The notes under the pieces are model-generated. The model was not told where the DNA came from, made no database searches, and worked only from the letters and a program-made list of their open reading frames with translations. A stretch of DNA of 64,000 nucleotides from an uncultured bacterium (lineage in GTDB: Bacteria; Pseudomonadota; Gammaproteobacteria; Burkholderiales; Burkholderiaceae_E): the NCBI GenBank assembly GCA_903907905.1, contig CAIVPX010000033.1, positions 1 to 64,000 on the forward strand, in the 5' to 3' direction. Below, one piece after another: positions 2,698 through 24,167 of the stretch (positions are counted from its first letter, which is position 1; each line of letters starts with the position of its first letter). Position numbers and translations under genes: made by a program.

Positions 2698-3690
2698 ATG
2701 AAACGCTTGCGTCTGTGGTCCGTGCTCGCGCTGGCGTCCTGCGCCGCCCTGTTGGCCGGCATGGCCTCTCCGGCCGGGGCCCAGACCTATCCATCCAGGC
2801 CGATCTCGATGATCGTGCCTTTTGCGGCCGGAGGCAATGTCGATGCGGTGGCGCGTTGGGTCGGCCCCGAACTGAGCAAGCGGCTCGGTCAGCCGGTGGT
2901 CATCGAAAATACGGCCGGCGCGGGCGGTGTGATCGGCACCGAGCGTGCCGCGCGGGCTGCGGCGGATGGTTACACGCTGCTGCTGTCGGTCGAGAGCACC
3001 ATCGTCATCGCCAAAATGGTGTCGCCCTCTGTCGTGAAGTACGACGGGCTCAAGGATTTTTCGCCGGTGACCCTGCTCTCCAGTGCGCCACTGGTCCTGG
3101 TCGGCAAGCCCGCGCTGCAGGCCGGCAACCTGAGCGAGTTGCTGGCGATGATGCGCCGGGAGCCCGGCAAACTGAGCTATGCCACCTCGGGCACGGGAAC
3201 GTCCCTGCACGTGGCCGGCGAGATGTTCAATCAGTTGGGCAAGGTCAACATGGTGCACGTGCCCTACAAGGTGGGCGCGCAGATCGTGTCCGACCTGATG
3301 GGCAATCAGATCGATCTGGCCATGTTGCCCATTCCGCTGGCGGGCGAGCAAGTCAAGGCCGGCAAGCTCAAGGCCTACGGGGTGACCGAAGGCGCCCGCT
3401 CGCCGGCGCTGCCGGATGTGCCCAGCATGGCCGAGCATCCGGATCTCAAGGGCGTTGACGTCACCGTCTGGTTTGGTGTGTTTGCGCCGGCGGGCACGGA
3501 CCCGGCCATCGTCGCCCGCCTCAATCGCGAGCTCACCGAGGTCTTGCGCGATGAGGGGCTCCGGCAAAAGTTTGCGGTGATCGGCATGCGAACGCTTGGT
3601 CTGGGGCCGGAGCCCTTCGCGAAGTTTCTGGTGGGCGAGACTGAAAAATTTGGCGCGATCGTCAAGGCCGGCAACATCCGGGCCGAATGA
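2698..3690 (+). CDS. Bug/TctC-family periplasmic substrate-binding protein
   Basis: A 330-residue receptor of the tripartite tricarboxylate transporter (TTT) Bug family. The ATG at 2698 is preferred over upstream in-frame starts because CTGAGGAG lies just before it and it begins a classic signal peptide (charged start, hydrophobic core, cleavage near AGAQT, about residue 31). Family motifs are YPSRPISMIVPFAAGG, the ligand loop ENTAGAGGVIG and HVPYK in the second lobe. It is the first gene of an operon with adenine deaminase, overlapping it by ATGA (3687-3690), which suggests a purine or related heterocycle as ligand. No TctA/TctB membrane partners occur in the window, as is common for Bug proteins, so how ligand crosses the membrane is unknown. 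Confidence 0.9.
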   Translation: MKRLRLWSVLALASCAALLAGMASPAGAQTYPSRPISMIVPFAAGGNVDAVARWVGPELSKRLGQPVVIENTAGAGGVIGTERAARAAADGYTLLLSVESTIVIAKMVSPSVVKYDGLKDFSPVTLLSSAPLVLVGKPALQAGNLSELLAMMRREPGKLSYATSGTGTSLHVAGEMFNQLGKVNMVHVPYKVGAQIVSDLMGNQIDLAMLPIPLAGEQVKAGKLKAYGVTEGARSPALPDVPSMAEHPDLKGVDVTVWFGVFAPAGTDPAIVARLNRELTEVLRDEGLRQKFAVIGMRTLGLGPEPFAKFLVGETEKFGAIVKAGNIRAE

Positions 3691-5456
3691 ACGAGCTGGT
3701 TTCCATCGACACGCGCCAGCGGGCGATTCACGCAGCCCAAGGTCGCGCGCCGTTCGACCTGCTGCTGTGCAATGCCCGGGTGGTGGACGTGGCGACCCTG
3801 GAGGTGCGCGAGGCCGACGTGGGGCTGGTGGGCGAGTTGATCGCCAGTGTCCATCCTCGCGGGCGCTTCGCCCAGGCCATCCGGACCATTGACCTCCATG
3901 GCCAGTATCTCGCGCCCGGCCTGATCGACGGCCACGTGCACTTCGAATCCTCGCACATGCTGCCGCATCACTATGCTTCGGTGGTGGTGCCGCAGGGTAC
4001 AACGACCATCTTCTGTGATCCCCACGAACTCGCCAATGTGCTGGGCATCGAGGGCGTGCGGTATGCGGTGGCGGCCAGTCGGGGGCTCCCGCTTCGATTC
4101 ATCGTTCAGGCCTCGTCGTGTGTGCCGGCTGCACCGGGGCTCGAACTGTCGGGCGCCGACTTTCAGCAGGGCGAGATCGATGCACTGCTCGCCATGCCCG
4201 AGGTGGCTGGCCTGGCCGAGGTCATGGACATGCGGGCGGTGCTCGAGGCCAGCCCGCGGATGATGGGTATTCTCTCGGCGGCGCTCGCCAGCGGCAAACT
4301 CATCGAGGGTCACGCGCGTGGCCTGTCGGCTGAGCGATTGCAGGCCTATCTGGCCGCAGGCATCAGCGCCGATCATGAGATCACCTCGGGCGCCGATGCG
4401 CTCGAAAAGCTTCGGGCGGGCATGACCGTGGAGCTGCGCGGCTCGCACGACTACCTGCTGCCCGATGTGGTGGCGGCCATCCGGACTTTGCCGGTCGTAC
4501 CGACCAGCCTCACGGTCTGTACCGACGATGTCTTCCCCGACCAGTTGGTCGACAAGGGGGGAATGATCGATGTGGTGCGACGGTTGGTGCGATACGGGCT
4601 GGACCCGCTGCAGGCCCTGCGCTGCGCGACCATCAACAATGCCTATCGCCTCAAGCGCGACGACCTCGGCTGGGTGGCCGCCGGGCGGCGCGCCGATCTC
4701 ATCGTGCTGCGCGACCTGGTCGACTTTCAGGTTAGTCAGGTGTTTGCCAACGGTGTCGAGGTGGCCGCCGGGGGCCGTCTGCTGCAGGCGCTCGAAGCTG
4801 GCGAGACGGCGCTGCCGACCCGAAGCATGAAGCTCGGTCGCCTGTCTGCCGCGGATTTCGCGCTGAAGGTGCCCGAGTTGCGCCAAGGGCGGGCAGTGGT
4901 GCGGGCCATCAAGGGCGCACGCTTCACGGAATGGGTGGAGATCGAAGTCGAGGTGTCCGACTCGGTGGCGTCTGTCCCCGACCACCTTTCTCGCATGACG
5001 GTCATTCATCGTCACGGGCGCTCGGAGGCGGGGCCCCAGACCGCGATCATCGACGGCTGGGGCCGTCTGGCCGGTGCCTATGCCACCTCGTATGCTCACG
5101 ACTCACACAATCTGGTCGTTTATGGCGCCGACCCGCAGGACATGGCGGTTGCCGCCAACGCGGTGATCGACCTGGGTGGCGGCAGTGTCGTGGTGCGGCA
5201 GGGCCAGGTCATTGCATCAATCGCGTATCCGGTGGCCGGGCTACTGTCGAGCGACGAACCGCAGGCGGTGGCCCGGGCGCATCAGGCACTGGTGGACGCG
5301 GCCGGCAGTGTGGTCGAGTGGCAGGGGCCTTACCGGACCTTCAAGGCGCTGTCGGGGCAGTGCCTGGCCTGCAACGCCGGCCCGCACCTCACCGATCTGG
5401 GGCTTACCGACGGGACCACCCGTGAGGTGCTGCGTCCGTTCGTACGGGCCCTCTGA
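3687..5456 (+). CDS. ade: adenine deaminase
   Basis: A 589-residue cytosolic enzyme that deaminates adenine to hypoxanthine in purine salvage and catabolism. It matches the bacterial adenine deaminase family over its length: metal motif DGHVHFESSHM (His83, His85), the CDPHE segment, EGHARG, the DHE motif in ISADHEITSG and the TDDVFPD loop, followed by the characteristic C-terminal domain with NLVVYG and a GGG(S/I)V segment. Usual length is about 570 to 600. The start overlaps the receptor stop by four bases (ATGA), so the two are translationally coupled. The enzyme is Mn/Fe-dependent in characterised members; nothing here suggests loss of activity. Confidence 0.92.
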   Translation: MNELVSIDTRQRAIHAAQGRAPFDLLLCNARVVDVATLEVREADVGLVGELIASVHPRGRFAQAIRTIDLHGQYLAPGLIDGHVHFESSHMLPHHYASVVVPQGTTTIFCDPHELANVLGIEGVRYAVAASRGLPLRFIVQASSCVPAAPGLELSGADFQQGEIDALLAMPEVAGLAEVMDMRAVLEASPRMMGILSAALASGKLIEGHARGLSAERLQAYLAAGISADHEITSGADALEKLRAGMTVELRGSHDYLLPDVVAAIRTLPVVPTSLTVCTDDVFPDQLVDKGGMIDVVRRLVRYGLDPLQALRCATINNAYRLKRDDLGWVAAGRRADLIVLRDLVDFQVSQVFANGVEVAAGGRLLQALEAGETALPTRSMKLGRLSAADFALKVPELRQGRAVVRAIKGARFTEWVEIEVEVSDSVASVPDHLSRMTVIHRHGRSEAGPQTAIIDGWGRLAGAYATSYAHDSHNLVVYGADPQDMAVAANAVIDLGGGSVVVRQGQVIASIAYPVAGLLSSDEPQAVARAHQALVDAAGSVVEWQGPYRTFKALSGQCLACNAGPHLTDLGLTDGTTREVLRPFVRAL

Positions 5457-5483
5457 GGCGCAATGCTGGCTGGCCCGACCGCT

Positions 5484-6107
5484 CTAGGCTGATTGCGCCC
5501 AGGCCGTGACCTCGGTCTCCACCAGAATGTCGGGATCGAAAAAATTCGCCACCCCGATGAAGGACAGCGCAGGCCGCACGCCGACGACGATTTCGGCATG
5601 GGCGCGCGCTGCGTCGGCCCAAAGCGTGGTGTCCAGCATGTAGATTCGCGTGGCGACCACGTCTTGCCAAGTCATCGAGGCGGCTTCGAGGGCCGCACCG
5701 ATCACGCTGAGGCTTTGCCGCGTCTGACCATATACGTCGCCAAGGAACAGGATGCGCCCCTGTGCATCGGCCGGTGAGGTGAGCGATGTCTGGAAGAAGG
5801 GGCCCACGCGTACCGCCCGGGAGTAGGAAAAACGGGTCTCCCAAGGGCGCCCGCTGGTCACCTCCAGACGGCCCGGCGGCGCCTTTTTGAGTGCAACAAA
5901 GCTGCCAGAGCCGCGGGTTCGGGTGATGAGCCCTTCGGCCACCAGTTCGCGCATGGCGCGGTTGACGGTCATTCGGCTGACGTCAAAGCGCTGCATCAGC
6001 GCGTGTTCGCTGGGCACGGCATCGCCCGCTTGCCATCGCCCCGAGGTGATGGGCCGGCTGATGTGGTTCTTGATGCGCTGGTAAGCGGGTAGAGCTTGTC
6101 GATTCAT
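5484..6107 (-). CDS. GntR winged-helix/RidA-domain fusion regulator
   Basis: A 207-residue protein in one open frame. Residues 1-72 are a GntR/HutC-type winged helix (YQRIKNHI, GDAVPSEHAL, FDVSRMTVNRAMREL, GLITRTRGSGSFV). Instead of the usual UTRA or FCD ligand domain, residues 82-207 are a RidA/YjgF domain (GRPWETRFSYSRAV, GQTRQSLSVIGAALE, VVATRIYMLDT, ending LVETEVTAW). The arginine that binds substrate carboxylate in catalytic RidA (Arg105 of E. coli, in PARS) aligns by eye with Leu181 (PALS), so it is more likely a sensor than an enamine/imine deaminase. ATG at 6107 starts at the expected N-terminus; the longer open frame upstream reads into the ABC gene in antisense and is rejected. It diverges from an amino acid ABC transporter and probably represses it and itself. 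Confidence 0.85.
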   Translation of the reverse strand: MNRQALPAYQRIKNHISRPITSGRWQAGDAVPSEHALMQRFDVSRMTVNRAMRELVAEGLITRTRGSGSFVALKKAPPGRLEVTSGRPWETRFSYSRAVRVGPFFQTSLTSPADAQGRILFLGDVYGQTRQSLSVIGAALEAASMTWQDVVATRIYMLDTTLWADAARAHAEIVVGVRPALSFIGVANFFDPDILVETEVTAWAQSA

Positions 6108-6126
6108 CCGCGAAAGTGTATCGAGT

Positions 6127-6155
6127 TTGACTAAAGTTGTATAGGCAACTAAGCT
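6127..6155 (+). promoter_or_regulatory. operator-like inverted repeat with overlapping promoter
   Basis: AGTTG (6135-6139) and CAACT (6146-6150) form a perfect inverted repeat around TATAGG, giving a core close to TTGTATA-type half-sites known for HutC-like GntR regulators. It is the only clear palindrome in the 57-base divergent region. TTGACT (6127-6132) and TAAGCT (6150-6155), 17 bases apart, could be the -35/-10 boxes for the ABC genes, which would place the repeat inside the spacer. Confidence 0.45.
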
Positions 6156-6164
6156 CCTCGCACC

Positions 6165-6941
6165 ATGACCCAGAGCCCCATCTCCTCGCCCCTGCCCGCG
6201 CCCTTGTCCTCGATGGTCAGTATCGAGCGGCTCGACAAGTGGTTTGGGGCGTTTCAGGTGCTGCGCGACATCAGCCTCGAGGTCAGCCCCGGCGAAAAAG
6301 TGGTCATCTGCGGGCCCTCGGGCTCGGGAAAATCTACGCTCATCCGTTGCATCAATCAGCTCGAGCGACATCAGTCGGGGCGCATCGTGGTCGATGGGGT
6401 CGAACTCACCGGCGATCCGCAGCAGCTTGCCCGGGTGCGCTCCGAGGTTGGCATGGTGTTCCAGAGCTTCAACCTGTTCCCGCACCTGACTGTGCTGCAG
6501 AATCTTTCGCTTGCGCCGATGCGCGTGCGCGGCCTGTCGCGCGAGGAAGCCGAGGCGCTCGCCATGCAACTGCTGGGCCGGGTCCGCATCGCCGAGCAGG
6601 CGCACAAGTACCCCTCGCAACTGTCCGGCGGGCAGCAACAGCGGGTAGCCATCGCCCGATCCCTGTGCATGAAGCCCAAGGTGATGCTGTTTGACGAGCC
6701 CACCTCTGCGCTCGACCCGGAGATGATCAACGAGGTGCTCGAGGTGATCGAGGATCTGGCCCGCGAGGGCATGACCATGCTGGTGGTCACCCATGAAATG
6801 GGCTTCGCGCGCCGTGCGGCCGACACCATGGTGTTCATGGACAAGGGGGAGATCGTCGAGACGGCCGCTCCGGCCGATTTCTTCTCCGCGCCCCGCACCG
6901 AGCGCTGCAAGCTCTTTCTCAGCCAGATCCTGAGCCACTGA
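6165..6941 (+). CDS. polar amino acid ABC transporter ATP-binding protein (GlnQ/HisP-type)
   Basis: A 258-residue cytoplasmic ATPase. Walker A is GPSGSGKS, the Q-loop is FQSFNLFPH, the signature is LSGGQQQR, Walker B is VMLFDEPTSALD and the switch is VTHEMGF, all in the pattern of the polar amino acid uptake group. About 16 residues precede the conserved core; a second ATG at 6213 (MVSIERL) is an alternative start. The stop shares one base with the permease start (TGATG), so the two are coupled. The cognate binding protein is likely the convergent gene at 7793-8599. Regulation is probably by the divergent GntR-RidA protein through the palindrome at 6135-6150. Confidence 0.92.
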   Translation: MTQSPISSPLPAPLSSMVSIERLDKWFGAFQVLRDISLEVSPGEKVVICGPSGSGKSTLIRCINQLERHQSGRIVVDGVELTGDPQQLARVRSEVGMVFQSFNLFPHLTVLQNLSLAPMRVRGLSREEAEALAMQLLGRVRIAEQAHKYPSQLSGGQQQRVAIARSLCMKPKVMLFDEPTSALDPEMINEVLEVIEDLAREGMTMLVVTHEMGFARRAADTMVFMDKGEIVETAAPADFFSAPRTERCKLFLSQILSH

Positions 6942-7693
6942 TGAAGCGTCCCCTGATTCTTTTGCTGCTGGCCTGTGCCAGCGTGCTGGCGGGTTGCGGC
7001 GGCGGCTACAACTGGGCCTGGTATGTCGTGTCACCTTTTACCGACAAGGGAATCGGCAATATCCAGTTTCTGGTTTCGGGCGTCGGCTGGACGGTGCTGC
7101 TGGCGCTGTGCGCCATCAGTTGCTCGGTGCTCATCGGTCTGCTGGTTGCGCTCCTGGGGCTGTCGCGCAATCCCGTCGCGCGCCTGCTCAATCGTTGCTA
7201 TGTCGAACTGATGCGCGCCATTCCCATGCTGGTGATGGTGCTCTGGGTGTACTACGGATTGCCGATCGTCACCGGGATCAAGCTCGACGTATTTACCGCG
7301 GGGCTGATCGCGCTGGCCTTGTGCGACAGCGCCTTCGAGGCCGAAATTTTCCGGGGGGGCATCCAGTCGATCGACCGGGGGCAGACGGAGGCGGCGGGCT
7401 CGCTGGGCCTCAACTACCTGGACACGATGCGCTTCATCATCCTGCCGCAGGCCTTACGGCGAGTGTTGCCGCCCTTGGGCAATCAGTTCGTCTACATGTT
7501 GAAGACGTCATCGCTGGTGTCGGTGGTGGGTCTGGCCGAACTCACGCGCAAGGCCAATGAGCTGGTGGTTACCGAGTACCGGCCGCTCGAGATCTATACA
7601 TTTCTCATTCTCGAGTATCTGGTGCTGATTTTGCTGGCCTCGAGCGCGGTGCGCTGGCTCGAGCGCCGCATGGGCGTTGCCGACCGTCGCTAG
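6941..7693 (+). CDS. amino acid ABC transporter permease with lipobox-like N-terminus
   Basis: A 250-residue inner-membrane permease of the HisMQ/GlnP group with about five hydrophobic segments. The typical core is present: the MRAIPMLVMVLWVYYGLP segment, the DSAFEAEIFRGGIQSI region and the EAAGSLGLNYLDTM loop that contacts the ATPase. The N-terminus reads like a lipoprotein signal (LLACASVLAGC, Cys19, followed by GGGYNWAWYV); similar starts occur in some relatives, but whether the cysteine is lipidated is unknown. It is coupled to the ATPase gene by a one-base overlap, and a strong hairpin follows at 7730-7775. Confidence 0.9.
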   Translation: MKRPLILLLLACASVLAGCGGGYNWAWYVVSPFTDKGIGNIQFLVSGVGWTVLLALCAISCSVLIGLLVALLGLSRNPVARLLNRCYVELMRAIPMLVMVLWVYYGLPIVTGIKLDVFTAGLIALALCDSAFEAEIFRGGIQSIDRGQTEAAGSLGLNYLDTMRFIILPQALRRVLPPLGNQFVYMLKTSSLVSVVGLAELTRKANELVVTEYRPLEIYTFLILEYLVLILLASSAVRWLERRMGVADRR

Positions 7694-7792: not shown

Positions 7793-8599
7793 TCAGTTCT
7801 GACCGATGATGCCCCACTTCTTGTTCAGTTCGGCGAAGTAGCCATTCTGACGCTTGATGACGATCCAGTTGTTCACGAAGTTGATCCACACCTGATCATC
7901 AATCGCCACGACGAAGCTCATCGGAATGCTGTTGCGCGGCTTGTCCATGAGGATCATGGTCATGTCGGGGTGCTGCTTGACCAGTTGCGCGCCCTCGAAC
8001 AGGCTGGTGACCGTGTAATCGACGCGGCCGGCGAGCAGTTCCTGCCAGTCGCGCGCAGGCGACTCGACCCGACGCACGCCCGACTTGGGCAGTGCCGACT
8101 GCACGAACTGCTCCATGGTGGTGCCCAGGTTGAAGCCGGCCGTGACCGAGGGCTGGTTGAGATCTTCCCAGTCCTTGTACTTGTCGGCGTTCTTTTTCAG
8201 CACCAGCGGAAAGAAGGCGTTGTGCCCCCAGGGGATGGTGAAGCCGGCGGTCTTGGCCCGGGCCACGCTCATCGATGCGCCCGTCATGGCGATGTCGTAC
8301 TGTCCCGCCTGCACGCCCTGGACCAGCGTTTTCCAGTCGGTTGGCACGAACTCGATCTTGACGCCCAGATCTTTGGCCAGTTCCTTGGCGGCGTCGATCT
8401 GGTGGCCGGTGAGTTCCTTGGTGTTCGGATCGCGGAAGGACATCGGGTTGTAGTCGCCCGTCGTGCCGACCTTGAGCACGCCCGCCTTCTGAATACGGTC
8501 GAGTCGGGAGCCTTGCTGGGGCGTCTGGGCGTGGCTGAAGCCAAAGCTGAGGGCTGCGCCTGCGGTGAGCAGGGTCGCGAGTGCGCGCGCGAAAGTCAT
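7793..8599 (-). CDS. periplasmic amino acid-binding protein of ABC transporter
   Basis: A 268-residue solute-binding protein of family 3. The ATG at 8599 is chosen because it starts a signal peptide (MTFARALATLL..., cleavage near SHAQT) and AGGATCC lies just upstream; the longer open frame has no signal. Family marks are VLKVGTTGDYNPMSFRD, the KELTGHQIDAAKELAKDLG segment, a D-I-A-M-TG region and PSVTAGFNLGTT, similar to the cyclohexadienyl-dehydratase-like/PheC branch of binding proteins. It faces the ATPase-permease pair tail to tail and probably delivers an amino acid or small acid to it, although it is not in the same transcript. Confidence 0.88.
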   Translation of the reverse strand: MTFARALATLLTAGAALSFGFSHAQTPQQGSRLDRIQKAGVLKVGTTGDYNPMSFRDPNTKELTGHQIDAAKELAKDLGVKIEFVPTDWKTLVQGVQAGQYDIAMTGASMSVARAKTAGFTIPWGHNAFFPLVLKKNADKYKDWEDLNQPSVTAGFNLGTTMEQFVQSALPKSGVRRVESPARDWQELLAGRVDYTVTSLFEGAQLVKQHPDMTMILMDKPRNSIPMSFVVAIDDQVWINFVNNWIVIKRQNGYFAELNKKWGIIGQN

Positions 8600-13179: not shown

Positions 13180-14529
13180 TCAGCGCTCGGTCATTCCCCG
13201 TCGGATTTGCTCGCGGATCGGCTTGGTCAGATAGTCAAACGGCGTGCGCTGGCCGGCGACCAGGTAGACCTCGGCCGGCATACCGGGCTGCAGAACGATG
13301 TCGCCCAGTATCGCGGTATCGAGTTCGACTCGGGCGACGTAGTAAGCCTTGCCGCGCGAGGTGTCGGCAAAGCGGTCAGCCGAGATGCGGCTGAGTCTGG
13401 CGGGGAACACCGGCGTGGTCCGGGTGTTGAACGCGGTAAAGCGAACCTCTGCGGGCATACCGACCCATACCCGGTCGATATCCTCGGGCTGGACCTGAGC
13501 TTCGACCACCAGTCTGTCATCCAGCGGAACGATCTCCATGATGGCTGCGCCGGGTTTGATCACACCGCCGGGCGTATGGACCTGAAGGCCCATGACAGTA
13601 CCCGTGTCAGGTGCGAGGACCTCGACCCTGTCCAGCGCGTCCCGGGTTGCATCCAAGCGCTCCGATGCGTCGCGCAAACGGGCTCGTACATCCTGAATCC
13701 GATCGGTGACTTCCTTGCGGACCTGGTTGCGCAGGTCAATCATCCGCAGGTCCGCTTCACCGATTTGCGCCTCGGTCTCGGCGATATCGGCGGTCAATCG
13801 ACCAATCAACCCTTCGAGATCGGCCTCGGATCGCTTCAACGCGAAATATCGGGTCTTGAGATACATGCCCGTCTCGAGCAGGGACTCAGCGCCGAAGATC
13901 TCCTCCTGGATGAAACCCAATTTTGTCTTCGTGGCCGAAATCTCGGTGATCCTGCCCGCAATCTTCTCTCTCGCCTGATATTGCCGCTGCACCAGAACGT
14001 CAAACTGGCCCTTGAGGGCTGCACGGCGACTATTGAAGAGATTGAGTTCGCCGTCGATCAGACCCGCCACCTCGCTGTCGGCCCGCCGGCTGAGCAGCGA
14101 TGCGCTGAAGATGGGTGAGGCACGCTGATCGCGCTCGGCCTCCAACCTTGCGAGTTCGGCCGACAGAGCGTCATGCTCGACTCGGACCAGCGCGTACCGC
14201 GCCCGAGCGGTGACGTCAGAGAGCCGCAAGAGAACCTGCCCGGCCTCGACGCGCGAACCCTCCCGGACCAGAATCTCCCGGATGATCCCGCCTTCCAGGT
14301 GCTGGATGGTCTTTCGCTCTCCTGATACCTTGACGATCCCGGGGGCGATCGTGGCGGTTCTCAACGGAGCCAGCGCAGCCCACCCGCTCAGGGTGCCGAA
14401 GCCGATCACGATAATCGCCACGCCCGCGACAATCAGTCTGCGCTTGCTGTGGCCATAACGCAGCACCGCAGGGTCAACCGATTCGATTTGTGCGTCATTG
14501 GGCGAATGAGTCTGCTCCGCAGTGTTCAT
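13180..14529 (-). CDS. type I secretion membrane-fusion (HlyD/PrtE-type) adaptor
   Basis: A 449-residue periplasmic adaptor that would link the inner-membrane ABC exporter to a TolC-like outer-membrane channel. It has one N-terminal membrane segment (about residues 30-52), a lipoyl half-motif (KTIQHLEGGIIREI), a long coiled-coil hairpin region (about 130-290), the second lipoyl half (GTVMGLQVHTPGGVI) and a beta-barrel/C-terminal domain (PGMPAEVYL). The ATGA overlap with the ABC gene (14526-14529) shows one operon. No TolC homologue is present in the window, so the outer-membrane partner must be encoded elsewhere. Probable cargo is the RTX protein two genes upstream. Confidence 0.9.
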   Translation of the reverse strand: MNTAEQTHSPNDAQIESVDPAVLRYGHSKRRLIVAGVAIIVIGFGTLSGWAALAPLRTATIAPGIVKVSGERKTIQHLEGGIIREILVREGSRVEAGQVLLRLSDVTARARYALVRVEHDALSAELARLEAERDQRASPIFSASLLSRRADSEVAGLIDGELNLFNSRRAALKGQFDVLVQRQYQAREKIAGRITEISATKTKLGFIQEEIFGAESLLETGMYLKTRYFALKRSEADLEGLIGRLTADIAETEAQIGEADLRMIDLRNQVRKEVTDRIQDVRARLRDASERLDATRDALDRVEVLAPDTGTVMGLQVHTPGGVIKPGAAIMEIVPLDDRLVVEAQVQPEDIDRVWVGMPAEVRFTAFNTRTTPVFPARLSRISADRFADTSRGKAYYVARVELDTAILGDIVLQPGMPAEVYLVAGQRTPFDYLTKPIREQIRRGMTER

Positions 14530-16292
14530 GCTGCCACCTCGCTGGCTGATTGGGCGATCGATTTATCCGGCTCGGGTGCTACGGTTTGCGCTGCTTTCCG
14601 ACGGGTAGCCGGTGTCTCCGCCAAGGCGAGCTTGCTCATGACGCTTGTGCGGGAGCCAAAGGCCTCTACCGCGCCGTGTCGCAGGACGAGTAACTTGTCT
14701 GCCTGCTTGAGCAGGGCGCTCTGATGCGTGATGATCACGACGGTCGCCCCCAAACCCTTGGCATGAGCGATGGCACGGACCAGACCCGCTTCGGCTGCAG
14801 CATCGAGGTGGGCGCTCGGTTCGTCCAGCACGATTAGCCTCGGGTTGCCGAAAAAGGCCCGTGCGATCGCGATGTGCTGCCGCATTCCAGCCGAAATGAG
14901 GGAGCCACCCTCGCCGACGACCGTGTCATAGCCTTTGGGTAACTGTTCGATCTCCGCGTGCAGTCCAACGATGCTTGCGGCCTGCTCGGCGGCAGCGACA
15001 GATTCGGGGGTGTCTGCAAGACGGGCGATGTTGCTGCGGATCGTGGTGTTGAATATCTGAACCTCCTGGGAGAGGTATCCGATCAGCGAGCCGAGCGAGT
15101 CGGCGCCCCGCTCGGCGGGCTGTGTGCCTTCGATCCGAACCGTGCCGGCTTTCGGTACGCAGAGGCCCAGGATGACCCGCCCCAGGGTCGATTTTCCCGC
15201 GCCGGAGGGGCCCACGATACCAAGCAGTTGGCCCGCGGCGAGATCGAAGGACACGCCCCGCAGGACGAACCGTTCGCCACCGGTTGAAGCGATGCTGACC
15301 TTGTCCAGGCTGATCTTTCCAATCGATGATCTGGATATCGCATCGCGGTCGCCCGACCCGGACAGTGCAGTCGCCAATTCGGACTTCAGGTGCGCGTAGG
15401 CGTGACGGGCATCGACCAAGCCACGCCATGCGCCCATCAAACCCTCGATGGGTGCGAGCGCGCGGCCCATCAGGATGGAGGCGGCGACGATGGCGCCGAC
15501 CATCACCTGACCGTCGACATAGAGCCACGCCCCGGTGGCATACAGTCCGACCTGCAACAGCACTCGGACGAAGCGTGTTCCGCTTCTTGCGACCCCAGTC
15601 CGATCGGCACCGATCATGGTCGCGTCAACCGATCTGATCTGAATCTTTCGCCATTGCCGCGTCGCAGCCGAGATCATGCCCATCGACAAGATCGCCTCGG
15701 CACCCCGTGTGTATTCATCAAGGATTCGATTGAGGCTCCGACTGGACTGAATGGCCTCGCCGATGGGGCCGCGCGCGATCCATTCGTTCAAGATCGCCAG
15801 GCAGATCAGCAGCACTGAGCCAATCGTTGCAAGCGCGCCGAGCGCCGGATGGAGCAAGAAGACGACAGCCAGGTAGAGTGGGACGAAAGGGACGTCGAAC
15901 AAGGTCAACATTCCCGAGCCCGCCAGAAAGGTTCGCAGGGCCGAGACGTCCTTGATCGCATTTCCGCCTCCATGGGTCCGGTTCGACGCTGCGGTGATCG
16001 ATCGCTGCAGGGCGACGGGACCGAGTTCGGACTCGAGCGAGGCGCCCATTCGCACCAGCAACCTTGAGCGCACCAGATCGAGCAGCGCCTGGACGCACAG
16101 CGCAGCGATGGCGGCAGCCGTGAGCAGCGCAAGCGTATCCTGGCTCCGACTGGTCAGCACATGAGAAAAGACTGCCAGCATGTAGAGCGGCGTAGTCAGC
16201 ATCAGTACATTGAAAAACACACTGAAAATCCAGAGTACGATCACGGCAGAGCGGTGTCGTTTGATGATTGATCCCATATCGTCAGTGGTCAT
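14526..16292 (-). CDS. type I secretion ABC exporter (PrtD/AprD-type) with degenerate signature
   Basis: A 588-residue half-transporter with an N-terminal six-helix membrane domain (about 10-300; no C39 peptidase or CLD domain in front) and a C-terminal ATPase. Walker A is GPSGAGKS (361-368), the Q-loop LSQEVQIF, Walker B LIVLDEPSAHLD and the switch ITHQ. The ABC signature, normally LSGGQRQR in PrtD relatives, reads ISAGMRQH, losing both the second glycine and the glutamine. ATG at 16292 has an AAGGGCC site; ATGs at 16319 and 16340 are alternatives. It should export the RTX protein encoded upstream in the same direction. An intrinsic terminator lies between the two, so the exporter is probably made at a lower level than its cargo. 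Confidence 0.9.
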   Translation of the reverse strand: MTTDDMGSIIKRHRSAVIVLWIFSVFFNVLMLTTPLYMLAVFSHVLTSRSQDTLALLTAAAIAALCVQALLDLVRSRLLVRMGASLESELGPVALQRSITAASNRTHGGGNAIKDVSALRTFLAGSGMLTLFDVPFVPLYLAVVFLLHPALGALATIGSVLLICLAILNEWIARGPIGEAIQSSRSLNRILDEYTRGAEAILSMGMISAATRQWRKIQIRSVDATMIGADRTGVARSGTRFVRVLLQVGLYATGAWLYVDGQVMVGAIVAASILMGRALAPIEGLMGAWRGLVDARHAYAHLKSELATALSGSGDRDAISRSSIGKISLDKVSIASTGGERFVLRGVSFDLAAGQLLGIVGPSGAGKSTLGRVILGLCVPKAGTVRIEGTQPAERGADSLGSLIGYLSQEVQIFNTTIRSNIARLADTPESVAAAEQAASIVGLHAEIEQLPKGYDTVVGEGGSLISAGMRQHIAIARAFFGNPRLIVLDEPSAHLDAAAEAGLVRAIAHAKGLGATVVIITHQSALLKQADKLLVLRHGAVEAFGSRTSVMSKLALAETPATRRKAAQTVAPEPDKSIAQSASEVAA

Positions 16293-16350
16293 GGTGGCCC
16301 TTGTTTGATGGCGATTCATGTCTGCTCTGTGGCCAGGCACTGCAGGCCCA

Positions 16351-16386
16351 AGAAAAAGGGCGGGTGCGGCGTTGCCGCACCCGCCC
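16351..16386 (-). terminator. intrinsic terminator/attenuator between RTX gene and exporter gene
   Basis: On the minus strand a perfect 13-base-pair stem (GGGCGGGTGCGGC with GCCGCACCCGCCC, 3-base loop) is followed by TTTTTCT. It starts 34 bases after the RTX stop codon and is the clearest minus-strand terminator in the window. Read-through would give the downstream secretion genes; otherwise they need their own promoter, which was not found in the 58 bases left. Confidence 0.85.
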
Positions 16387-16420
16387 TCACTTCTTCGTGA
16401 GTGTGGAAGAGACTAGAAGT

Positions 16421-18196
16421 TCAAACCACTTCGATATTGATCGAGCTCAGCAACTCCGTGAGTGAATCGATCCCGTCTGCACTTGGCGCAATACCCATGT
16501 CCCGAAGCACGATCGAATCCTCCGATCCTCCGGTCCAGCTGTCGTTGCCGTCCCGGTTGAACCAGATCGTGACATCGGTACCGTCGTCGACGACTTGCAC
16601 CAGGGCCTCGAGTTCGGCAACAGTATTGACCTCCGGATCGTCGACCTCGAAACGCAAGATGTCGATCAGTGAGGGGTCCAGAACGTAGTCGGTGCTCATG
16701 ATGTCGCTGTCGTCCAGCCAACTCGAGATGCCTTCCTCGCCCTGTACCGCGTGCACGTTGAAGACGAACTTGTCGGAGCCCGCCCCGCCCGTCATCGTGT
16801 CGTCCTGCTCGCCTCCAAGGATGGTGTCATTGTCAGCGCCACCATTGATGAAGTCGTTGCCGTTGCCACCACAGACCGTGTCCTTGCCGCCCTCGCCGAA
16901 CAGACGGTCCTGCTGGTCACCTCCAGACAGCATGTCGTCCTGAGCACCGCCGCGCAATGTGTCATCGCCCTCGCCGCCAAACATCATGTCCAGCCCGAGG
17001 CCGCCGAGCAACTGGTCGTTGCCCTCGTTCCCGCACACGAGGTCATTGCCCGCACCACCATCCTCGAAGTCGTCGCCAAGCCCGCCGTGCAGTGTGTCGT
17101 TGCCGCCGTCCCCGCGCATGGAGTCATCGTTGTCGCCACCGTCGAGGTTATCGGCGCCCTCGCCGCCGGCAAGCGTGTCGTCACCTGCATCGCCCATCAG
17201 CACGTCGTTGCCAGCACCGCCATCAAGCAGGTCATTGCCGGTGCCGCCATTGGCGCTGTCGTTGCCGTTCTCTCCCAAGACCTGATCGTCGCCATCGTCC
17301 CCGAAAAGCAGATCGTCGTCGTCGCCGCCGCTGACAGTGTCGTTTCCTGAGCCACCGTTAAGCGTGTCGAAGCCGCCGTTATCGGTCACGAGGTCGTTGC
17401 CTTTACCGCCATCGAGAACATCGTCACCCGAGTTCCCGAACAGGGTGTCGTTGCCGTTGTCGCCGGTGAGAATGTCATCGTCGCTACCGCCGTCGATGTT
17501 GTCCGCACCGTCTCCGCCGTGGAGTTCATCGTTGCCGGCTTCGCCAAGCAGGGTGTCGTCACCCGTACCGCCGTTGACCGTATCGTCGCCGTCGCCGGCG
17601 TTCACGCGGTCGCGTCCCGCGTCGCCGGCGATGAGGTCGTTGCCGCCGCCACCGGTGATCGTGTCGTTGTCGGCACCGCCGTTGATGTCATCGTTTCCGG
17701 CATCGCCCGAGAGCACATCATCACCGGATCCTCCCCTCAGCGTGTCGTCACCTTCATTGCCGTTGAGTCGGTCGTTGCCAGCATCGCCTGCGAGGACATC
17801 CATTCCTGCGCCGCCTGCCAGCGTATCGTCATCGTCACCCCCATTGAGCGTATCAGCGCCAACGCCGCCGCTCAGGTTGTCCATTCCGGCGTCGCCGCTC
17901 AGCACATCGTCGCCCGCGTCACCAAGTAAGGTGTCATTACCTTCGTTGCCATTGAGTTGGTCGTTCTCGGTTCCGCCGGACAGGTAGTCGTCGCCCAGGC
18001 CACCCGAGAGGGTGTCCATGCCCGACTCGCCATAGAGCTTGTCATTACCGGACTCTCCGTTGAGTTCGTCATCGCCATCCCGGCCATAGATCGAGTCATT
18101 GCCGCCACCTGCGAATACGCGTGCATTCGATCCAGCAACGACATCCTTCCAGAGGTTGTTGCTTGACGAGAGCACATAGGTTTTGTCGAACGCCAT
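16421..18196 (-). CDS. RTX protein with 50 uninterrupted nonapeptide repeats
   Basis: A 591-residue predicted secreted protein. ATG at 18196 has a TGGAGAAC ribosome site and lies downstream of a sigma-54 promoter; an upstream in-frame ATG at 18298 would overlap that promoter and is rejected. Residues 1-29 are a short cap, residues 30-479 are fifty consecutive GGxGxDxLx-type calcium-binding nonapeptides without a linker, and residues 480-591 are an acidic C-terminal domain ending SINIEVV, a hydrophobic/acidic tail typical of uncleaved type I secretion signals. No protease, lipase or other catalytic domain is visible. Two cysteines occur inside repeats 40 and 46, which is unusual for RTX proteins. 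Calcium-triggered folding outside the cell into a beta-roll is expected; role could be surface coat, adhesion or matrix. Confidence 0.9.
   Translation of the reverse strand: MAFDKTYVLSSSNNLWKDVVAGSNARVFAGGGNDSIYGRDGDDELNGESGNDKLYGESGMDTLSGGLGDDYLSGGTENDQLNGNEGNDTLLGDAGDDVLSGDAGMDNLSGGVGADTLNGGDDDDTLAGGAGMDVLAGDAGNDRLNGNEGDDTLRGGSGDDVLSGDAGNDDINGGADNDTITGGGGNDLIAGDAGRDRVNAGDGDDTVNGGTGDDTLLGEAGNDELHGGDGADNIDGGSDDDILTGDNGNDTLFGNSGDDVLDGGKGNDLVTDNGGFDTLNGGSGNDTVSGGDDDDLLFGDDGDDQVLGENGNDSANGGTGNDLLDGGAGNDVLMGDAGDDTLAGGEGADNLDGGDNDDSMRGDGGNDTLHGGLGDDFEDGGAGNDLVCGNEGNDQLLGGLGLDMMFGGEGDDTLRGGAQDDMLSGGDQQDRLFGEGGKDTVCGGNGNDFINGGADNDTILGGEQDDTMTGGAGSDKFVFNVHAVQGEEGISSWLDDSDIMSTDYVLDPSLIDILRFEVDDPEVNTVAELEALVQVVDDGTDVTIWFNRDGNDSWTGGSEDSIVLRDMGIAPSADGIDSLTELLSSINIEVV
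16760..18109 (-). repeat. array of 50 tandem RTX nonapeptide codon units
   Basis: I counted 50 contiguous 27-base units with no insertion or loss of frame, encoding x-x-G/D-N/D-D-x-L/I/V-x-G. Consensus positions four and five are almost always ND or DD. Unit 19 ends NA and unit 27 ends TD instead of G, the last unit ends FVF, and several units have Met or other residues before Asp. Codon-level sequence differs between units, so it is an old array and not a recent expansion. Confidence 0.9.
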
Positions 18197-18282
18197 GTCT
18201 GTTCTCCATTTCGAGCGGTTGATCTGCGCGTCCTCCGCGCAGGTCACGGCGTAATGCTGTTGCCGTGGCGAGATCGTCATGC

Positions 18283-18297
18283 GCAAGTCTTGTGCCA
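18283..18297 (-). promoter_or_regulatory. sigma-54 (-24/-12) promoter of the RTX gene
   Basis: Minus-strand sequence TGGCACAAGACTTGC matches the RpoN consensus TGGCAC-N5-TTGC exactly, with the required 10 bases between the GG and GC doublets. The start of transcription would be about 18271, leaving a 75-base leader before the RTX ATG at 18196. The gene directly upstream encodes a sigma-54 activator. Confidence 0.85.
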
Positions 18298-18346
18298 TCT
18301 ACGCAAGTGACTGATCTTTCTGGAAGGTGGCCGCCGTATTTGGTCT

Positions 18347-19694: not shown

Positions 19695-21089
19695 ATGAGT
19701 CGATATGCGTTTGTTCTGGGGAATGTTCGATTCGTATTCGAAGATCTCAAGACGCTGTTGGCACGCGCGACGCCGCTTCGCTCCGGCGACTGTCTGGCCG
19801 GGGTCGCGGCGCAAAGCGCCGAAGAGCGCGTGGCCGCGCAGATGTGCCTGGCCGAGGTGCCGCTTTCGCGCTTTCTCGAAGAGCCACTCGTTCCGTATGA
19901 GCAGGACGAGGTGACCCGGCTGATCATCGACACGCACGACGCCCAGGCCTTCGAGCCGATCAGGCATCTGTCGGTCGGCGAATTTCGCAACTGGCTGTTG
20001 CGCGAGCAGACCGATCACACCGCACTGAGCGCGCTCGCGCCCGGCATCACGCCCGAGATGGCCGCTGCGGTATCCAAGATCATGCGCGTGCAGGATCTGA
20101 TCCTGGTGGCGAGCAAGTGCCGGGTGATCAGTCGCTTTCGAAACACCCTGGGCCTGCCGCGCCGACTGGCCATTCGACTGCAGCCGAACCATCCCACCGA
20201 CGACGCCTCGGGGATCGCTGCCAGCATCGTCGATGGTTTGCTATATGGCGCGGGCGATGCGGTGATCGGCATCAATCCGGCCTCGGACAACGTGCCGCAG
20301 GTGATCCGCATTCTCACCATGCTCGACGAGGTGATCCGAGAATACGGTATTCCCACGCAATCCTGCGTACTCACGCACGTGACCAACACGCTCGAGGCCG
20401 TCGCGCGCGGCGCCCCGGTCGATCTCGTGTTTCAGTCGATCGCGGGGACCGAGCAGGCCAATCGCAGCTTCGGCATCAATCTCTCGCTCTTGGCGCAAGC
20501 GCAGCAGGCCGCGCTGTCGCTGGGGCGAGGAACGGTCGGCAACAACGTGATGTATTTCGAGACCGGGCAGGGCAGTGCGCTCTCGGCGGGCGCGCATCAC
20601 GGCATGGATCAGCAAACCTGCGAGGCGCGGGCTTACGCGGTAGCCCGGCACTTCAGCCCTCTGCTCGTCAATAGCGTGGTGGGCTTCATCGGCCCCGAGT
20701 ACCTGTATGACGGCCGGCAGATCATGCGTGCGGGACTCGAGGATCACTTCTGCGGAAAACTCATGGGACTGCCCATGGGCTGCGACATCTGCTATACCAA
20801 CCACGCCGAGGCCGACCAGAACGATGTCGATGCGCTCCTGACCCTCCTGTGCACCGCCGGTTGCAATTTCGTCATGGGGGTGCCGGGCTCGGACGACATC
20901 ATGCTCAATTACCAGTCCACGTCCTTTCACGACGGGCTCTATGCCAGGCAGTTGCTCGGGCTTGCGCCCGCGCCCGAGTTCGAGGCGTGGTTGCGAACCA
21001 TGGGCATTCTCGAGGCGCGGGAGGGCTTTGCACTGGTCCAGGCCTTGCCGGCGGCTTTTGAGCGCGGACTTGCGCGACTGGGGGCCTAG
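19695..21089 (+). CDS. eutB: ethanolamine ammonia-lyase large subunit
   Basis: A 464-residue large subunit of the adenosylcobalamin-dependent lyase that converts ethanolamine to acetaldehyde and ammonia. Length and sequence fit EutB throughout: [14 protein letters not shown], the [13 protein letters not shown] segment, the [15 protein letters not shown] stretch and the [16 protein letters not shown] region with [20 protein letters not shown] at 19695 has GGTGAGG upstream. The small subunit starts one base after the stop. No microcompartment, aldehyde dehydrogenase or reactivase genes follow, so this is the short cytosolic type of pathway seen in non-enteric proteobacteria. Confidence 0.95.
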
Positions 21090-21090
21090 G

Positions 21091-21972
21091 GTGAGTTCGA
21101 CCAAGGACGGTGGGTCGGGATCGACGCAATCCGCTGGTGCGCCCGGTTCGCCTGATGCAGGTGCGGCCCGCGAGGCGGCTGCGATCGTCATCGACAACCC
21201 GTGGTCGGCGCTCAAGCGCTTTACACCCGCGCGGATCGCCTTGGGGCGGGTGGGCGCGAGCCTGCCCACACGCGCTCACCTGGAGTTTCAACTGGCCCAT
21301 GCCCAGGCGCGAGACGCCGTGCATCGTCCGTTTGATGGGTCGGGCCTATGCCGTGACCTCGCGGCCGACGTGGCGCCGATGGGACTGGATTGCCTGCTGC
21401 TCGACAGTGCGGCCGGGACGCGGGCGGTGTATCTGCAACGCCCCGACCTCGGTCGCCGGCTCGATGAGGCGTCGCGCCGTTGCTTGGCCGACCTGGCACC
21501 GCCCGCGCAGTCGCCTGCACCCCGCCTGGCATGGGTGATCGCGGATGGGCTCTCGGCGTTGGCCATCGAGCGTCAGGCCCGGCCCTTTCTGGCGCAGGTG
21601 ATGCCCGGTCTGGCGGCCGCGGGCTGGGGGTTCGCGCCGCTCTGCGTAGTACGCCAGGGGCGGGTGGCGATCGGCGATGAGATCGGCGAGCGCTTGGGCG
21701 CAGACCTGGTGGTGGTGCTGATTGGTGAACGCCCGGGACTGAGCTCGCCCGACAGCATGGGGCTTTATCTCACCTGGGCACCGCGCGTGGGGCTCACCGA
21801 TGAGCGCCGCAACTGCATCTCCAACATCCGCCCCGCGGGCTTGAGCACCGAGGAGGCGTCGCTGCAGCTTCAATGGCTTGTGGCGCGGGCGAGGCAGTTA
21901 CGCCTGTCGGGGGTGGCCCTCAAGGACGAGCGCGGCTCGCCCGCATTGAGCGCTGCCGACACGCCGCGCTGA
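21091..21972 (+). CDS. eutC: ethanolamine ammonia-lyase small subunit
   Basis: A 293-residue small subunit carrying part of the cobalamin site. The GTG at 21091 is chosen because it lies directly after the eutB stop in the right frame and gives a usual EutC length; no ATG fits the N-terminus. Recognisable segments are [20 protein letters not shown] near residues 45-65, the [17 protein letters not shown] region, [30 protein letters not shown] and NCISNIRP. The first 25 residues are Gly/Ser/Ala-rich. It would form the heteromeric enzyme with EutB. Confidence 0.93.
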
Positions 21973-22003: not shown

Positions 22004-22978
22004 TCAGTCGGCGCGCGCGCCCACGCTGCGCGAGAGGGCTGTCCACTTGGTGATTTCCTGCGCGATGAATCGACCGAAGTCTTCCGGGCTGCCGCCAATG
22101 GGATCGAGGCCGCCTCCCACCAGCTTGTCGCGGATGGCGGGGCTGTTCATGACGCGATTGAGTGCGTCGTTGAGCTGCTTCACCACGGCGGGCTCCATGC
22201 CGGCGGGACCGAGCAACCCCTGCCAGGCGGTGGCCTCAAAGCCTGGCAGGCCCGATTCGGCGATCGTGGGGATCGAGGGGGCATTGGGCGACCGAGCAGC
22301 AGTGGCCACCGCCAGCGCCTTGAGCTTGCCGCTCTGAACGTAGGGCATGAGGTTGGCCTGATCGCCGAGCGACAGCTGAATCACCCCACCGACGAGGTCG
22401 GTGACCATGGGGCCGCCGCCCTTGTACGGGACATGCAGCATATCGATGCCCGCCTGGGCCTTGATCAGCTCGGTGCCCAGATGCGGCAAGGACCCGCTGC
22501 CGGCCGAGCCATAGCTCAGACGACCGGGCTGGGCGCGGGCGTAGGCGATCAGTTCCTGCACCGTGCTGAAGGGCGTCGACGGATGCGCGGCCAGCACGTA
22601 GTTGACGTTGACAGTGCGCAGAACGGGCGTGAAATCCTTGATCGGATCGTAGGGCATGCTGGGATAGATGCCGACGTTGATCGCCATCGAGGCGATGTTG
22701 CCGAGCACCAGCGTGTGGCCATCCGGCGCTGCCTTGGCCACCATGCCCGCGCCCACCATGCCGCCCGCACCGCCCCGGTTGTCGATGACCACGGGCTGGC
22801 CCAGCGACTCGGCCAGGGCGTTTTGCACGACCCGCGCGAAGAAGTCGACCGCGCCCCCCGGCGGAAAGGGCACCACGATTCGGATGGGTTTCGAAGGATA
22901 GGCTTGCGACCAGGCGGCCGGCAGGAGCGCCGCCAGCAGGGCGGTGAAGGCCGCCAATCGGAACATCTGCGCTTTCAT
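22004..22978 (-). CDS. Bug/TctC-family periplasmic substrate-binding protein
   Basis: A 324-residue receptor. The ATG at 22978 starts a signal peptide (MKAQMFRLAAFTALL..., cleavage near AWSQA, about residue 25); the frame remains open upstream but that part is antisense to the enolase-superfamily gene. Motifs: YPSKPIRIVVPFPPGG, DNRGGAGGMVG and HVPYKGGGPMVTDL. It diverges from the enolase-superfamily gene 55 bases away, and both probably respond to the same substrate. Convergent with eutC. No membrane partner in the window. Confidence 0.92.
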   Translation of the reverse strand: MKAQMFRLAAFTALLAALLPAAWSQAYPSKPIRIVVPFPPGGAVDFFARVVQNALAESLGQPVVIDNRGGAGGMVGAGMVAKAAPDGHTLVLGNIASMAINVGIYPSMPYDPIKDFTPVLRTVNVNYVLAAHPSTPFSTVQELIAYARAQPGRLSYGSAGSGSLPHLGTELIKAQAGIDMLHVPYKGGGPMVTDLVGGVIQLSLGDQANLMPYVQSGKLKALAVATAARSPNAPSIPTIAESGLPGFEATAWQGLLGPAGMEPAVVKQLNDALNRVMNSPAIRDKLVGGGLDPIGGSPEDFGRFIAQEITKWTALSRSVGARAD

Positions 22979-23033
22979 GAACAGCCTCTGCGTCTCTATG
23001 ATGTCGCTTGACTTTACACGAGCCGGAGCGCCC

Positions 23034-24167
23034 ATGACCGTCACGATCGATCGAATCGAATGCTGGGTGCACCGGGCGCCGATCGATGTGCCCGTGGCCA
23101 ACGCGTTCGGGGCGATGAGCAACCGTCCAGCGCTTTGGTTGCGCCTGACCGACAGCGATGGCGGTTCCGGTTGGGGTGAGGTCTTCTGCAACTTTCCGCA
23201 GGTTGGCGCCGAGCATCGTGCACGCCTCATCGACAGCCTGTTCGTGCCGCTTCTGAAGGGGCTCGAGGCCAGTGACCCGGCGCCCGTGCGTGCGCATCTC
23301 GAGCGGCGCACGCATCGGATGGCCATTCAGTGCGGCGAGCCCGGCCCGTTTGCCCAGATCATCGGTGCCGTCGATCAGGCGATGTGGGACCTCTGCGCGC
23401 GGCGGGCCGGGCAACCGGTGTGGCGCTACGCCGGCGGTGGCCGGGCCTGTGTGCGCCCTTACGCGAGCGGGATCGGGCCGGATGGGGTCGCCGAGACGGT
23501 GCGGGCGCGCTGGCAGCAGGGCTATCGGGCCTTCAAGCTCAAGCTCGGCTTCGGTCTTGAACGTGACCTTGCCAACCTTGCCGAGATGCGCTCGGTCATT
23601 GGCCCGGACACGCCGCTGATGTGCGATGCGAACCAGGCCTGGGACTTGAGCGAGGCGCGGGCGATGCTTGAGGCGATCGAAGTCTTCAAACCGTTCTGGG
23701 TGGAGGAGCCTCTGGCGGCTGACCGCCCCCTGAGTGAGTGGCGTGAGCTGGCAGCGTCGTCTCCGCTGGCACTGGCCGCAGGCGAAAACATCCGTGGCGA
23801 GGGCGACTTTCTGGCGATGCTCGACGCCGGGTGTCTGCGCTTTGTCCAGCCTGACGTCGGCAAGTGGGGTGGCTTGAGCGGCGGGCTCCAGATTGCGCGA
23901 CGGGCCCGCGCCCTGGGGGTGGCGTACTGCCCGCACTGGCTGGCCGGGGGGCTGGGTCTGGCCGCCTCGATGCATGCGCTCGCCGCTAGCGGCGACACGC
24001 AGGGATGGGCCGAGGTCGATGCCAACCCGAACCCCTTGCGCGAGTCGATATTCCCGTTTCAGATCCAAGACGGACTGGTCACGCTGGGCGATGCGCCGGG
24101 CTTTGGCCTCGAGCCCGATCTCGAGGCCTGCCGGGCCTGGCGGATCGATCATCATCGCGTCGGCTGA
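23034..24167 (+). CDS. mandelate racemase/muconate lactonizing enzyme-family protein
   Basis: A 377-residue enolase-superfamily member. The capping domain (1-125) is followed by a barrel with KLK at Lys168-Lys170, metal ligands Asp198 (CDAN), Glu224 (VEEP) and Glu251 (AGEN), and HWLAGGLGLAASMH near the barrel end. This pattern fits sugar-acid dehydratases or racemases that abstract a proton next to a carboxylate. ATG at 23034 is preferred over one at 23000 because it opens directly into the first strand (MTVTIDRIECW) and has a GGAG-type site. It diverges from a Bug receptor and precedes a nitronate monooxygenase-type gene by 49 bases. Confidence 0.88.
   Translation: MTVTIDRIECWVHRAPIDVPVANAFGAMSNRPALWLRLTDSDGGSGWGEVFCNFPQVGAEHRARLIDSLFVPLLKGLEASDPAPVRAHLERRTHRMAIQCGEPGPFAQIIGAVDQAMWDLCARRAGQPVWRYAGGGRACVRPYASGIGPDGVAETVRARWQQGYRAFKLKLGFGLERDLANLAEMRSVIGPDTPLMCDANQAWDLSEARAMLEAIEVFKPFWVEEPLAADRPLSEWRELAASSPLALAAGENIRGEGDFLAMLDAGCLRFVQPDVGKWGGLSGGLQIARRARALGVAYCPHWLAGGLGLAASMHALAASGDTQGWAEVDANPNPLRESIFPFQIQDGLVTLGDAPGFGLEPDLEACRAWRIDHHRVG

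Follow-up and report, generated by a model that had tools for sequence, protein, structure and literature searches.

Can a Rid domain serve as the ligand-sensing half of a transcription factor? The question is raised by a gene in the window, the whole 64-kb stretch of DNA analysed here, whose product joins a HutC-type winged helix to a Rid domain. GntR regulators are classified by their effector domain, and a Rid domain in that role would be a new effector type. To our knowledge no GntR-Rid regulator has been characterised, and no paper describing one was found in the openly licensed literature. The gene and its parts are as follows.

5484–6107, reverse strand: fusion gene encoding a HutC-type winged helix and a Rid domain (open frame, Pfam, even codon usage)
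5895–6083, reverse strand: GntR/HutC-type winged helix, residues 9–71 (PF00392, TIGR02018, structure model)
5871–5891, reverse strand: short linker LKKAPPG of about 7 residues, residues 73–79 (from the end of the GntR match to the start of free-standing Rid proteins)
5487–5870, reverse strand: Rid domain of the Rv2704-like subgroup, residues 80–207 (PF01042, PDB 3i7t by sequence and fold, tree)

The 207 codons form a single open frame from an ATG at 6107 to a TAG at 5484–5486, with no internal stops. Pfam places the GntR domain (PF00392) at residues 9–71 with an E-value of 1.4e-20 and a score of 73.1 bits against a cut-off of 27, which identifies a member of the GntR superfamily. The best NCBIfam match of the first 76 residues is the HutC model TIGR02018 (E 1.2e-28), and the alignment ends there: it covers only positions 1–76 of the 226 in the model and scores 100 bits, below the cut-off of 220. 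The recognition helix reads VSRMTVNRAMREL. PF01042 (Ribonuc_L-PSP) matches residues 93–202 with an E-value of 6e-18, above the Pfam cut-off, and marks a Rid superfamily domain. Structure models were made as single chains, with the two halves modelled from separate alignments. The winged-helix half, modelled with its own relatives in the alignment, has the expected helices and wing at a pLDDT of about 70–94. The Rid half is predicted with confidence and has the Rid fold, with PDB 3i7t (Rv2704 of M. tuberculosis) as its top Foldseek match and also as the closest PDB entry by sequence.

Neither UTRA nor FCD was found in the fusion by a Pfam scan that does detect UTRA in an ordinary GntR regulator. 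The aminotransferase-like C-terminal domain that characterises MocR/GabR proteins is likewise absent by Pfam, and matches to MocR/GabR models cover the winged helix only. The open frame and the Pfam and NCBIfam matches therefore bear out the original prediction of a HutC-like DNA-binding domain and a full Rid domain in one uninterrupted frame without UTRA or FCD. We do not file the protein as HutC, despite its repressor-like, HutC-type predicted mode of working, because the UTRA domain that defines HutC is missing; nor is the Rid half filed as RidA, because it lacks the catalytic arginine. GC content by codon position is equal in the two halves (0.65/0.52/0.75 in one and 0.65/0.51/0.77 in the other), so no frame break is visible at the join, which is placed at the point where free-standing Rid proteins start. 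The gene lies 5.5 kb inside a 174.5-kb contig; the draft genome consists of 190 contigs and has 2.1% contamination.

Two positions in the Rid domain bear on what it might bind.

5781–5783, reverse strand: codon of Leu109, in the place of the Gly in the RidA 'SG' motif (alignments)
5565–5567, reverse strand: codon of Leu181, in the place of the RidA catalytic Arg (alignment with the archetypal RidA of the same genome and with the nearest relatives)

Alignment with the archetypal RidA of the same genome agrees with the earlier reading that Leu181 stands at the catalytic position, where RidA proper, an imine deaminase, has Arg105. At this position each of the 66 scored Rid relatives carries T, C, S or A, a count taken from the well-aligned part of an earlier alignment; the other conservation counts come from a later one. 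Among the four nearest free-standing relatives, Leu109 is present in all and Leu181 in three, and we accordingly rejected both residues as changes specific to the fusion. Loss of the arginine is older than the fusion, because free-standing Rv2704-like relatives already lack it. The proposal that Leu181 marks an enzyme turned into a sensor within the fusion is thus not supported. Judged by kinship with Rv2704 in sequence and fold, the Rv2704-like Rid proteins are probably Rid6 (YjgF_like_6 of CDD), the group to which Rv2704 belongs.

The arginine is needed for imine hydrolysis and is missing from Rid4–Rid7, Arg-less proteins whose role and activity are not known (PMC4433059). In E. coli TdcF, Arg105 holds the carboxylate of the ligand (PMC1884159). 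An imine/enamine or keto-acid ligand, as first suggested, is therefore unlikely for the fusion if bound in the RidA manner, because the carboxylate-holding Arg is absent. The source genome has ten Rid-domain matches, one of them an archetypal RidA, so the fusion is not required as the cell's imine deaminase. A separate observation concerns contig C60 of genome G000, where a 399-residue frame at 22852–23922 (L006, L008) carries three Rid domains, a 3x-Rid arrangement; the 3x-RidA arrangement has been described (PMC4433059).

What might the protein control? On the other side of a short gap stands a transporter.

6135–6150, no strand: predicted operator AGTTGTATAGGCAACT (palindrome, sole match in the window, motif linked to HutC-type genes)
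6165–6941, forward strand: ABC transporter ATPase of the polar-amino-acid type, predicted target (Pfam/NCBIfam, 68–72% identity to the ATPases beside the nearest Rid genes)
6941–7693, forward strand: ABC transporter permease, predicted target (Pfam, NCBIfam, comparison with the relatives' transporters)
7793–8596, reverse strand: substrate-binding protein of the transporter, on the opposite strand with its own promoter (SBP_bac_3, 59–60% identity to two Rid clusters)

That the fusion faces an amino acid transporter was correctly foreseen: Pfam and NCBIfam identify a divergent ATPase of the polar-amino-acid type and a permease, with a predicted HutC-type operator between them and the fusion. Uptake transporters belong to HutC regulons (PMC5343134). 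Within the 57 bp that separate the fusion from the ATPase gene lies one palindrome with perfect arms, AGTTGTATAGGCAACT. When one mismatch is allowed, TTGTATAGRCAA has a single match in the window, at 6135–6150, where 0.01 would be expected. Two further TTGTATANRCAA sites occur in the genome, both within coding frames.

The motif was also examined at 31 loci with GntR-type genes (96 kb) in the relaxed form TTG[TC][ACT]TANRCAA. This gave 13 strand hits, equal to 7 distinct sites in 6 of the 31 loci, which stand for about four independent lineages because three of the six are close kin. Each of the seven precedes, by at most 400 bp, a gene that encodes a HutC-type recognition helix, and there are none elsewhere in the 96 kb; in loci picked for their Rid genes the relaxed motif has one match in 567 kb. 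The published HutC site is TGTA-N2-TACA (PMC12977541), and AGTTGTATAGGCAACT has one good half, with its right half off this consensus. Judged by its letters and position, the palindrome is a predicted HutC-type operator at the fusion's own promoter. No sigma-70-type promoter passed a consensus scan of 5440–6240. A separate full-length HutC is encoded on contig C144 of the source genome. Elsewhere in the genus, relatives of the permease and binding protein lie near creatininase-like genes and, where examined, sarcosine-oxidase-like genes; within the stretches fetched, these transporter loci had no match to the fusion and no operator motif.

The origin of the Rid half ties it to the same transporter. 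Its four closest free-standing relatives (L180, L181, L182 and L183) come from Alphaproteobacteria and are 45–57% identical to the fused domain, which is nested among free-standing relatives in the tree with a support of 95 for the sets of four and five. Each of the four genes has, at most a few kb away, an ABC transporter with an ATPase 68–72% identical to that of the window, and in two of the four genomes the permease (64–65%) and the binding protein (59–60%) match as well. A comparable transporter was found at none of 80 other Rid loci, where the sole ATPase match was weak (33%). From this pairing of Rid relatives with a matching transporter it follows that a pathway-linked Rid protein seems to have been turned into the effector half of the transporter's repressor.

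The relatives' clusters contain varying sets of creatininase, Rieske oxygenase, 2OG-Fe(II) oxygenase, glutamine synthetase III and glutamate-synthase-like genes, from which we guess that the pathway handles a nitrogen compound that is N-methylated or cyclic. The Rid genes L180–L183 differ from the fusion in being unfused and in their creatininase, Rieske oxygenase and glutamine synthetase III neighbours, which are missing beside the fusion. Genome G1328 has perfect TTGTATATACAA sites at L188:2566–2577 and L190:8080–8091, in the regions upstream of its transporter and its creatininase/glutamine synthetase operon. These two sites suggest that in other bacteria, too, a GntR-type repressor may govern the pathway; no GntR gene was found on the G1328 contig that carries them. 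The G1328 cluster also includes a Gfo/Idh oxidoreductase 43% identical to that of the window. In Alphaproteobacteria, L185 and L187 both show Rid, ABC transporter, creatininase, Rieske oxygenase and glutamate-synthase-like genes as a recurring cluster, to which L185 adds a 2OG oxygenase and glutamine synthetase III; the cluster may encode a pathway for an N-methylated compound. An apparent acceleration of evolution after the fusion was considered and dropped: the branch of the fused domain, 2.59 long where the median was 0.37, shrank to 1.14 when its nearest free-standing relatives were included.

The joined form itself appears to be rare. The whole protein was used as a query against partly overlapping sets of genomes: 74 from the family, 399 from the order, 369 from the class, 398 from the phylum, 28 from a family in which close Rid relatives abound, and 385 from Alphaproteobacteria. 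In these roughly 1,650 sampled genomes, only the match in the fusion's own genome spans both domains among the matches listed, and 72,556 plasmids and 50,697 phage records likewise yielded no second fusion. It is also missing from the genus's four other genomes. In a set of 84,980 species genomes, the 80 Rid relatives that ranked best carry no GntR domain on their frames; the fusion itself, run against the same 84,980 genomes and against viral contigs through short peptide patterns that reach close kin only, returned no relative. All these searches sample the databases, and fusions with much diverged halves could escape them. Several candidates were rejected: of four plasmid matches that at first looked as if they covered both domains, H1, H3 and H6 are Rid proteins without a GntR domain and H2 is an ordinary GntR-UTRA regulator, and H41 from Burkholderia arboris is an ordinary HutC-like protein. 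With one instance found, the 'new class' of sensor envisaged at the outset is not established, and because the instance is single, the function of the joined form draws no support from conservation.

We favour, at slightly better than even probability, a reading in which the fusion is a one-component local repressor of itself and the transporter, with the Rid domain replacing UTRA as the part that senses the inducer. The model that we infer takes in DNA binding, repression, ligand binding, the direction of the response and the oligomer. HutC-type winged helices would bind the palindrome at 6135–6150 between the divergent genes and thereby repress the ABC transporter operon as well as the fusion's own gene. 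A HutC-like ancestor would have exchanged its UTRA domain for a Rid domain from a free-standing protein linked to the same transporter's pathway. This domain would most likely bind a substrate or intermediate of the pathway, and binding would release the repressor from DNA and so induce uptake. Free-standing Rid proteins are homotrimers with ligand clefts between the subunits. If the core is trimeric and the operator has two half-sites, then either two of the three DNA-binding domains would bind or the protein would form a new dimer or hexamer; the lack of a simple fit counts against the repressor model. The broader claim, that the Rid fold can act as the ligand-sensing domain of a transcription factor through capture of a pathway-linked Rid protein by a HutC-type domain that controls the pathway's transporter, is one we hold tentatively, at a little under even odds.

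The strongest alternative is a repressor without a sensor, in which the Rid domain merely oligomerises the DNA-binding domains or persists as an inert leftover of a chance fusion, with repression either constitutive or under autoregulation alone. The single instance is compatible with this, as is the alteration in the fusion of residues conserved in free-standing relatives, including G94S, F174V and R/K152A. Yet the Rid domain is complete and keeps most conserved positions, among them the pocket Glu, and it is not clearly evolving faster than its nearest kin. It also comes from the transporter's own gene neighbourhood, which would not be expected of a random oligomeriser. We consider this alternative unlikely, if a serious one. 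A protein with two functions, whose Rid domain keeps the activity of its free-standing counterparts in the pathway while the DNA-binding domain ties transcription to its amount or activity, is more doubtful still. The nearest relatives are tied to the same transporter and have the pocket changes of the fusion, Leu109 throughout and Leu181 in three of the four, and an activity of theirs may persist. Against this, Arg-less Rid proteins have no known activity (PMC4433059), and a low-abundance repressor is a poor location for a pathway enzyme. An assembly or sequencing artefact that joined separate HutC-type and Rid genes is highly improbable: the draft state and contamination of the genome and the want of a second copy elsewhere would allow it, but the join preserves the reading frame, falls at domain borders, shows no shift in codon usage and lies well inside its contig, and a chance chimera would leave unexplained both the synteny of the Rid half with the neighbouring transporter in other genomes and the match of the DNA-binding half to the operator in the gap.

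The favoured inducible repressor has precedents for its parts. HutC (TIGR02018, the histidine utilisation repressor) has a winged helix, recognition helix and operator type in common with the fusion and, as predicted for the fusion, is a local regulator adjoining an uptake transporter; HutC senses urocanate through UTRA, whereas the fusion has a Rid domain in that place. Rv2704-like Rid proteins (PDB 3i7t) share the Rid fold, sequence kinship and the missing catalytic Arg with the fusion but are free-standing, without a DNA-binding domain. MocR/GabR regulators already combine a GntR winged helix with an enzyme-derived effector domain (PMC5320631), which in their case is a PLP-binding aminotransferase fold rather than a Rid domain. 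Among Rid proteins, E. coli TdcF has earlier been proposed as a sensor, of 2-ketobutyrate (PMC1884159); TdcF has Arg105 and no DNA-binding domain, in contrast to Leu181 and the winged helix of the fusion. If our reading is true, the free-standing Arg-less Rid proteins of the subgroup are predicted to bind the same compound, and a reporter placed on the operator would reveal the ligand of one Arg-less Rid protein (Rid4–Rid7). The fusion would also be a clear case of domain capture turning a pathway protein into the regulator of that pathway.

Other features of the window were noted in passing. An adenine-deaminase-like gene at 3687–5456 is absent from 73 other genomes of the family searched at E ≤ 1e-60, and, taken with the deaminase and amidohydrolase genes beside it, may represent an acquired island for nitrogen-ring compounds. 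By eye, the region 13180–18298 encodes an RTX-repeat protein alongside frames resembling a type I secretion ATPase and an HlyD-type adaptor, and a pair of frames at 19695–21972 resembles the ethanolamine ammonia-lyase subunits EutB and EutC.
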